A DNA stretch of 10,449 nt from Candidatus Saccharimonadota bacterium (lineage in GTDB: Bacteria; Patescibacteriota; Saccharimonadia; Saccharimonadales; Saccharimonadaceae): positions 1 through 10,449 of the forward strand of contig JAGCAL010000071.1 in assembly GCA_017652715.1 (NCBI GenBank). The letters run 5' to 3'. Both the position numbers and the translations under genes were made by a program. Shown here one piece after another: positions 3,053 to 5,149 of this stretch; positions within the stretch are counted from its first letter, which is position 1; every line of letters starts with the position of its first letter. The notes under the pieces were generated by a model. The model did not search any database, had not been told where the DNA came from, and saw only the letters and a list, made by a program, of their open reading frames with translations.

Positions 3053-5149
3053 TTATTTCGAATTTCTTTTCTCAATAATCTCTTGCGCAACGTTGGGTGG
3101 TACTTCCTCGTAATCGAAGAGTTCCATCGAAGAAGCCGCCCGACCTTGAGTCATACCACGCAAATCACCGGTATAACCGAAAAGATTAGCTAGCGGACAG
3201 AAGGCTTTAATCAGCTTAGCGCCACCATTTAGGTCTTCCATCTCGTCAATGCGACCTCGGCGCGAGTTAATGTCGCCAATTACGTCACCCATGAACTCTT
3301 CTGGAGTTGTAATTTCAAGTTTCATGACTGGCTCTAGAAGTACAGGGTTAGCTTTCTTGATACCCTCGCGAGTCGCTAGGCTACCTGCGAGTGTAAAGGC
3401 GAGCTCGGAGGAGTCTACATCGTGGTACGAACCATCGTAAAGTGTTGCCTTAACGTCTACTACTGGATAACCAGCAATTACACCGCCAGCAAGTGTATCT
3501 TCGACACCTTTCTGAACCGGCTTACGATATTCCTGTGGAACCACGCCACCTTTAATTTGGTCGATAAACTCGAAGCCTTTCCCTGGCTCGTTCGGCTCAA
3601 ACTTGATCCATACGTCACCATACTGACCGCGACCGCCAGATTGCTTAATATGCTTACCTTGAGCCTCGGCGGTACCGCGAATCGTTTCACGATATGCTAC
3701 CTGTGGCACGCCAGTGTTAGCCTCTACACCATGCTCACGTTTCAAACGGTCAATAATAATTTCTAGGTGTAACTCGCCCATACCGGAGATAATCGTCTGT
3801 CCGGTTTCCTCATCGGTATGAACGCGGAAAGTCGGGTCTTCTTCGGCCATCTTCGAAAGACCAATTCCCATTTTTTCCTGGTCGGCCTTAGTCTTCGGCT
3901 CAACCGCAATCGATACAGGAGGATCTGGGAACTCGATCGACTCAAGCAAAATCGGTGCGCTTGGTGCGCAAAGTGTCGTACCGGTCGTACAGTTCTTTAA
4001 GCCTACAACGGCTGCGATATCACCAGCGCCAATTTCGCTAATATCCTTACGGTCATTAGCGTGCATACGTACTAAACGTCCAACTCTTTCCTTATCGCCA
4101 GTCGAAGCATTAAGTACGGTATCGCCGGATTTCAATTTACCAGCATAAACGCGAATAAAGATCAACTTCCCCACGAACGGATCGGTCGCAATCTTAAAGG
4201 CGAGCGCCGTTAGCGGTTCGCTATCGTCAGCCTTACGGATGACCTGGTCGCCAGTCTTCGGGCTAGTCCCTACGGTTTGACCCTGGTCGCGGTCGAGCGG
4301 ACTTGGTAGATAATCGGTCATAAGATCAAGAACTTTCTCGACAATTACGCCACGTCCATCACCGCCAGTTACGAGGAAGAAATCGCCATCAAGTACACGC
4401 TTACGAAGGGCAGCCTTCAATTCTTCTATAGTAATAGCATCTTCGCCTTCGTTAAAGTATTTATCCATTAACTTCTCATCGGCTTGAACGGCTTCTTCGA
4501 TTAACATCGAACGTGCATTCTTAGCTTTTTCTACCATGTCGGCTGGAATCTCGCCGACGGTAAGCTCATGATCGGCATAATCTTTATAGGTATAAGCCTT
4601 CATATCGACGAGGTCGACAACTCCGCAAATATCCTTCTCAAAACCGATTGGTAAATGAATTGCAACTGCGTTTTTAGACAAACGCTTATGGATAGAATCA
4701 AGCGATTTGTAAAAATCGCCACCAATCTGGTTAATCTTGTTCACGAAACAAATGCGTGGTACGCCATATTTTGTAGCCTGGCGCCAAACAGTCTCAGACT
4801 GCGCTTCGACGCCCATCTTACCGTCGAAAACCACGACCGCTCCATCAAGCACGCGTAAAGAACGCTCTACTTCGGCCGTAAAGTCGATATGGCCCGGGGT
4901 ATCAATAATATTAATTTGATGGTTTTTCCAATAAACCGTAACGGCAGCGGAAGTAATTGTGATACCACGCTCCTTCTCCTGCTCCATCCAGTCGGTATCG
5001 GCACCACCGGTGCCACCCTTTACTAGATCAATTTTATGCTTAAGTCCGGTGCGGTATAAAATCGCCTCGGAAGTTGTAGTTTTTCCAGCATCAATATGTG
5101 CAATAATACCGATATTACGCAAATTCGCCAGATTCTTAGTTTCAGCCAT
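3053..5149 (-). CDS. fusA: Elongation factor G with altered guanine-binding motifs
   Basis: EF-G drives GTP-dependent translocation of tRNA and mRNA on the ribosome and, with RRF, ribosome recycling. The 698-residue product is full length: P-loop AHIDAGKT at 17-24, RGITI at 61-65, DTPGH at 83-87, domain II from about 311 (EPLTALAFKIATDPFVGKL), domain III, then domain IV with the SYHDVDSSE tip (His576), and domain V with GDVIGDINSRRGRI. The oddity is in the G domain: the NKxD motif reads NKIN (137-140), and the usual GSA of the G5 region reads GGD (262-264) within FFLVTGGDGRGVIVEKV. Both contact the guanine base in known EF-G. The rest is well conserved, so I still call it fusA rather than a paralogue. 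AAAGGAG (5153-5159) lies only 3 nt before the ATG. It follows gatB with no terminator between and ends at the 3007-3035 terminator. Confidence 0.97.
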   Translation of the reverse strand: MAETKNLANLRNIGIIAHIDAGKTTTSEAILYRTGLKHKIDLVKGGTGGADTDWMEQEKERGITITSAAVTVYWKNHQINIIDTPGHIDFTAEVERSLRVLDGAVVVFDGKMGVEAQSETVWRQATKYGVPRICFVNKINQIGGDFYKSLDSIHKRLSKNAVAIHLPIGFEKDICGVVDLVDMKAYTYKDYADHELTVGEIPADMVEKAKNARSMLIEEAVQADEKLMDKYFNEGEDAITIEELKAALRKRVLDGDFFLVTGGDGRGVIVEKVLDLMTDYLPSPLDRDQGQTVGTSPKTGDQVIRKADDSEPLTALAFKIATDPFVGKLIFIRVYAGKLKSGDTVLNASTGDKERVGRLVRMHANDRKDISEIGAGDIAAVVGLKNCTTGTTLCAPSAPILLESIEFPDPPVSIAVEPKTKADQEKMGIGLSKMAEEDPTFRVHTDEETGQTIISGMGELHLEIIIDRLKREHGVEANTGVPQVAYRETIRGTAEAQGKHIKQSGGRGQYGDVWIKFEPNEPGKGFEFIDQIKGGVVPQEYRKPVQKGVEDTLAGGVIAGYPVVDVKATLYDGSYHDVDSSELAFTLAGSLATREGIKKANPVLLEPVMKLEITTPEEFMGDVIGDINSRRGRIDEMEDLNGGAKLIKAFCPLANLFGYTGDLRGMTQGRAASSMELFDYEEVPPNVAQEIIEKRNSK

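Follow-up and report, generated by a model that had tools for sequence, protein, structure and literature searches.

The elongation factor G (EF-G) encoded in the 10,449-nucleotide stretch of DNA analysed here (the window) is altered in both guanine-recognition motifs, G4 and G5, and this two-site change is a real, fixed trait. Its range extends well past Saccharibacteria, to many other Patescibacteria. EF-G is an essential protein, and textbooks treat the Asp of the G4 motif NKxD as the mark of guanine specificity. Based on sequence comparison, we consider it somewhat better than an even chance that the window protein functions as an EF-G, with GTP use retained and the base-reading carboxylate moved from G4 to G5. 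The genes concerned are located as follows:

3053..5149, minus strand: fusA, encoding EF-G of 698 aa, a complete ORF identified by its TIGR00484 model score
1383..2564, minus strand: tuf, a model match, encoding canonical EF-Tu with NKMD at G4 and GSA at G5
5279-6844, minus strand: gatB, a model match
7315-8838, minus strand: gatA, a model match

Further minus-strand ORFs can be read from their sequences as murJ, gatC and rpsJ. By model score, fold and gene context, the window protein is a member of the EF-G family. Its score against the TIGR00484 EF-G equivalog is 1022.1 bits over residues 1-696, above the curated cut-off of 659.4, in agreement with the first-pass annotation, which had called it a full-length EF-G and had stated that the neighbouring EF-Tu keeps NKMD; the latter is also the case, and GSA is kept as well. 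The AlphaFold model contains all domains of a full-length EF-G (mean pLDDT 81.3, pTM 0.70). The 50 PDB matches listed in a structural search with this model are EF-G or EF-G-bound ribosomes. The top-scoring solved relatives of the protein are S. aureus EF-Gs, which show 50-53% identity to the model in the structural alignments. The gene is a housekeeping copy among translation genes, with tuf adjoining fusA. A search for a second fusA with intact NKxD, which had been proposed as a check, revealed no second EF-G in the window's own assembly (79% complete) among matches with E <= 1e-5; hence a canonical second copy doing the real work was not found there. A pseudogene or decayed paralogue is ruled out, since the window EF-G is full-length and is the only EF-G found in the assembly. 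Of the 368 phylum-sample genomes with an EF-G match (E <= 1e-100; three best candidates scored per genome), 365 have exactly one, and G054, G115 and G128 have two each.

Apart from the window EF-G, the E <= 1e-5 matches in its assembly comprise TypA (two rows), LepA in truncated form, and EF-Tu. The LepA frame (L003:1348-1893, contig C78) stops after 181 aa and comprises the G domain only; it is either a pseudogene or an assembly fault. LepA open frames are at least 598 aa long in 18 of 19 relatives, and 224 aa in G011. TypA (L002:1450-3348) keeps NKID at G4, and its G5 reads AIARDGRAG, with what we take, from E. coli TypA, to be Ile in the Ser position.

Two of the other genes in the window contain unusual stretches. 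gatB contains an in-frame insert (window 5699-5870) that encodes about 50 aa and is flanked by a 12-nt inverted repeat; its GC content is 70% (5700-5850) vs 44.5% for the window. It is absent in the aligned GatB of eight of nine relatives, L087 having a shorter, different stretch there, and pieces of it are also found at five further genomic sites, all within long open frames. The insert is read as a dispersed intragenic repeat element. A hydrophilic stretch of gatA (window 7960-8110), arranged around a 19-nt inverted repeat (7976-7994 / 8062-8080), is possibly another intragenic element.

The altered motifs of fusA are as follows:

4730..4741, minus strand: G4 motif NKIN, codons 137-140, replacing NKxD
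4730-4732, minus strand: Asn140, codon AAC, standing where the guanine-reading Asp normally sits
4346..4366, minus strand: codons 262-268, G5 loop reading GGDGRGV; a canonical loop of the C-G-S-A-x-K-N-K-G kind has one residue more
4358-4366, minus strand: codons 262-264, GGD, followed by GRGV
4358..4360, minus strand: Asp264, at the G5 Ser/Thr position, present in 243 of the 243 strictly distinct sampled EF-Gs without the G4 Asp

Codons 140 and 262-264 thus bear out the initial observation that both motifs are changed. A canonical guanine-specific G domain has NKxD at G4 and (T/G)(C/S)A at G5; here, G4 reads NKIN, and G5 reads GDG in register. Both a MAFFT alignment and an ungapped comparison (FLVTGGDG vs xPVLCGSA, and vs YPILCGDA of the EF-G L045) place Asp264 on the G5 Ser/Thr. 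The register is fixed because the Asp and Arg stay in VLVGDGR (P0122) and VMVADGR (L209), while the residues preceding them vary. In this register, G5 has changed from GSA to GDG, with a deletion of one residue after it. The new G5 Asp reported in the first-pass annotation is therefore present; however, it replaces Ser/Thr and not Ala, the latter assignment being ruled out by the register with the L045, P0122 and L209 forms. At the DNA level, 122 rows of loci with Asn140 and Asp264 (hereafter N-type), a set with some duplicates in which the gene of the window is counted twice, have AAC (89) or AAT (33) at codon 140, and GAT (69) or GAC (53) at codon 264. This agreement rules out a sequencing or assembly error.

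The distribution of the trait was analysed in a set of 536 EF-G rows, made up of the window, 295 loci and 240 proteins. Two database searches, with about 8000 candidates scored in each, supplied the proteins, the top 120 of each being taken; the loci come from searches with EF-G queries, region fetches and L261, a piece of the window's own gene from a repeat search. Rows agreeing at all shared columns were collapsed, leaving 504 strictly distinct EF-Gs, a sample that is biased to EF-Gs similar to the two queries and covers 181 of the 379 genomes of the phylum sample. At residues 140/264, these comprise 240 N/D, 154 D/S, 92 D/T, 15 D/A, 2 A/D and 1 Y/D; that is, 240 N-type and 261 D-type sequences (Asp140 with Ser, Thr or Ala at 264). 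Neither Asn140 without Asp264 nor Asp at both positions occurs among the 504. The co-variation of N140 and D264 that had been suggested for checking is thus found, with a single Tyr140/Asp264 oddity (P0031). N-type EF-Gs are present in 50 of the 50 genomes read of the window's class (its own genome counted) and in 103 of the 194 Patescibacteria genomes read; in the latter, 39 of 98 families are N-type, and no family is mixed. The earlier suppositions of a joint, lineage-wide change and of similar sequences in Saccharibacteria were right. The named N-type records belong to Saccharibacteria, plus one Berkelbacteria (L019), and records titled as phyla outside Patescibacteria are D-type. No prior report of an N-type EF-G was found in a literature search of open-licence PMC papers, mostly by title.

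A comparison of the 240 N-type and 261 D-type strictly distinct sequences indicated further residues that go with the type:

4352..4354, minus strand: Arg266, in 240 of 240 N-type sequences
4814..4819, minus strand: Lys111-Met112, each in 238 of 240 N-type sequences; in D-type, Lys111 in 12 and Met112 in 5 of 261
5063..5065, minus strand: Ala29, in the helix after the P-loop; Arg29 is found in 261 of 261 D-type and 12 of 240 N-type sequences

Residues 29, 111, 112, 139, 141 and 144 also differ between the types. D-type sequences have Asn267 (259 of 261) and Gly269 (261 of 261), and Asn137 and Lys138 are constant in both types (240 of 240 and 261 of 261). The residues changing together with the type may play a second-shell role. 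The 12 N-type sequences keeping Arg29 are L181, L187, L027, L209, L227, P0122, P0126, P0128, P0129, P0131, P0178 and P0209; those placed on the tree of the protein outside the G4-G5 segment lie among or beside D-type backbones, away from Saccharibacteria.

The two A/D sequences, L045 and P0121, are 98% identical and carry Ala140 with Asp264. L045:3001-5076, from a Patescibacteria genome (STF1_138), encodes an EF-G with NKMA at G4 and CGDALANQG at G5, and is read as the EF-G of an ordinary rpsG-fusA-tuf cluster, whose EF-Tu has NKVD. Like the window EF-G, it has lost the G4 Asp and has an Asp at the G5 Ser position; unlike it, it has Ala instead of Asn, a G5 loop of canonical length, and N267, G269 and R29 kept in both sequences. 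On the tree of residues 100-294, L045 groups with the D-types, which points to a separate origin of the Ala/Asp form. At the residue level, the sequences suggest only two origins, that of the N-type and that of L045/P0121. With Asp to Ala at G4, Ser to Asp at G5 and a loop of canonical length, L045 represents the minimal form of the change and is the best sign of compensation by the G5 Asp.

The history of the trait differs between parts of the gene, the relevant segment being the following:

4268..4852, minus strand: codons 100-294 (the G4-G'-G5 stretch), for which the tree disagrees with the one for the remaining residues

Trees were constructed for 67 chosen rows (32 N-type, 34 D-type and L045), the rest being residues 1-99 and 295-698. 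On the rest tree, the trait changes at least 8 times, and the AU test on these residues rejects a single N-type clade (log-likelihood decrease of 258, p 7.9e-6). On the tree of residues 100-294 with motif columns omitted, the 32 N-types form one clade with an SH-aLRT support of 98, and the trait changes twice. The G' subdomain alone (155-250) also separates the rows by type, needing 2 changes, vs 16, 16, 16 and 12 for four windows within 295-698, each about 100 residues long; such counts are inflated by the poor resolution of short windows. Most of the by-type signal is in G', because the G4/G5 flanks without G' (74 columns, motif columns removed) give 9 changes and do not gather the N-types. 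Of three rest-tree clades tested on residues 100-294, two are rejected (p 2.2e-4 and 3.9e-4). In addition, residues 106-160 of P0122 (motif included) are 75% identical to the window vs 51% to its close relative P0123. For pairs 74-84% identical outside the segment, the identity of the G4/G5 flanks with motifs omitted averages 76.3% where both members are of the same type (9008 pairs) and 64.8% where the types differ (225 pairs), the pairs sharing rows and being non-independent.

Apparently, the G4-G'-G5 segment moved between lineages, or was remodelled, as a block. We read the conflict of the trees as segment exchange between lineages; convergent remodelling is a credible alternative. According to the latter, which concerns the history and not the chemistry and which we regard as possible, if unlikely, no exchange took place: an old N-type would have been lost or gained several times, and G4-G'-G5 remodelled convergently. 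The failure of the flanks to gather the N-types is in line with this, as are the third rest-tree clade, which survives on the segment (p 0.058), the flank identity of same-type pairs, ranging down to 47%, and residues 1-99, whose 6 changes are below the counts of the other windows outside the segment. It is opposed by the sorting of G' by type, by the rejection of the other two clades, and by the resemblance of P0122 to the window.

The replacement of the G4 Asp by Asn (or by Ala in the separate origin) is joint with that of the G5 Ser/Thr by Asp, P0031 with Y/D being the exception, and the N-type G5 loop is shortened and carries Arg266. In the Mtb EF-G1 complex with GDP, as described in PMC8446442, the G4 Asp141 contacts N1-H and N2-H, whereas the side chain of the G5 Ser265 and the NH of Phe267 contact O6; therefore, the changed positions lie next to each other at the base. 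In canonical EF-G, the position of Asp264 faces the guanine edge formed by O6 and N1, adjacent to the G4 Asp. In the proposed mechanism, Asp264 would take the N1-H and N2-H contacts of the lost Asp, and Asn140 would assist, either holding Asp264 or accepting from N2-H, so that GTP binding, hydrolysis and the drive of translocation would be kept. Since altering only one of the two sites would cripple the pocket, the G4-G'-G5 stretch would travel or evolve as a unit. In a survey of 298 guanine-binding complexes (PMC11594714), 43.3% are without NKxD and 20.5% of the 298 use another Asp/Glu; therefore, such chemistry is not unusual in general, and the relocated guanine-reading carboxylate is new as to its place, in EF-G. 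The move to the adjoining G5 position appears to fit both origins. The co-variation in the 504 sequences, the constant Asn137 and Lys138, and the full-length model with its EF-G PDB matches speak for this explanation. Against relocation, the Ser position in the Mtb geometry faces O6, and guanine would be expected to repel a carboxylate unless it swung to N1; the 240 N-type sequences share ancestry and are non-independent; P0031 combines Tyr140 with Asp264; and Asp264 might bind Arg266 or Lys138 instead.

This last point leads to a reading in which base recognition is weakened: GTP would be held mainly by phosphate, ribose and Lys138, Asp264 would be structural (for example, in a salt bridge with Arg266), and the pocket would have changed for faster exchange, lower ppGpp affinity or G' packing. 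EF-G works without an exchange factor, Arg266 is constant with Asp264 in the N-type, and G' goes with the type. EF-G also binds GDP weakly (PMC8446442). However, the L045 loop has the Asp and no Arg, so an Arg is not what requires the Asp there, and we regard weakened recognition as rather unlikely. A specificity that is adenine-directed or relaxed, with ATP or several nucleotides used, seems improbable to us. Asn140 would donate to adenine N1 and Asp264 would accept from the 6-amino group, a pattern that would be complementary to the adenine edge; in EF-G, the Ser position points to position 6 of the base (PMC8446442). A precedent is YchF/OLA1, which has a changed G4 and binds ATP; according to PMC10144078, a Ser of human OLA1 is near the adenine 6-amino group, and GTP preference returns when Lys and Asp are restored in G4. 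On the other hand, the adjoining EF-Tu keeps NKMD, and Ala140 of L045 offers no donor for adenine N1, which would leave the convergence less well explained. Nucleoside diphosphate kinase is also widespread: matches occur in 339 of the 379 genomes of the phylum sample (EF-G types pooled) as well as in the genome of the window, and none in G126, a near-complete N-type genome of the window's genus. Its presence therefore gives no hint of a general loss of GTP supply, and such a loss driving a switch to ATP is without support from this pooled search. Quite improbable, in our view, is the wider version in which EF-G in much of Patescibacteria shifted to ATP or promiscuity with EF-Tu remaining on GTP and G4-G'-G5 exchanged as a cassette.

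The first-pass annotation had mentioned the shift toward XTP in EF-Tu, where the engineered G4 Asp-to-Asn change switched the protein to xanthosine nucleotides (as stated in PMC10731463); if the window EF-G had such a preference, D264 would be incidental. This analogy leaves the constant Asp264 unexplained: XTP-switch mutants combine Asp-to-Asn at G4 with a kept G5 Ser, whereas Asp is at the Ser position in 240 of 240 N-type sequences. A carboxylate near O6 would disfavour xanthine too, L045 has Ala rather than Asn, and XTP is scarce in cells. An XTP preference thus seems highly improbable, and the constant G5 Asp argues for compensation over a simple switch.

A natural two-site replacement with a second origin is a ready-made experiment on moving a base-reading carboxylate without loss of viability. 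It is relevant to the nucleotide specificity of translational GTPases, to the control of EF-G by ppGpp and to segment exchange within a core informational gene; motif-based annotation might call N-type EF-Gs defective.

Among known systems, engineered EF-Tu with Asp-to-Asn is changed at the same G4 position as the window EF-G; however, it is a different translational GTPase with a single engineered change, its G5 reportedly being unchanged. YchF/OLA1, an ATP-binding P-loop protein, is, like the window EF-G, a G-protein superfamily member with a naturally changed G4 specificity motif. It is not an elongation factor, its G4 motif is (N/T)(M/L/V)xE and not NKIN, and the excerpt of PMC10144078 describes no G5 Asp swap. 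Canonical EF-G (TIGR00484; S. aureus, T. thermophilus, E. coli) shares with the window EF-G the full-length five-domain structure, the Asn and Lys of NKxD and the location beside tuf, the identity to solved EF-Gs being about 45-57% in the structural alignments listed. In contrast to it, the window EF-G has Asn for the G4 Asp, GDG with a one-residue deletion for the G5 GSA, changes at residues 29, 111, 112, 141 and 266, and a diverged G' stretch.
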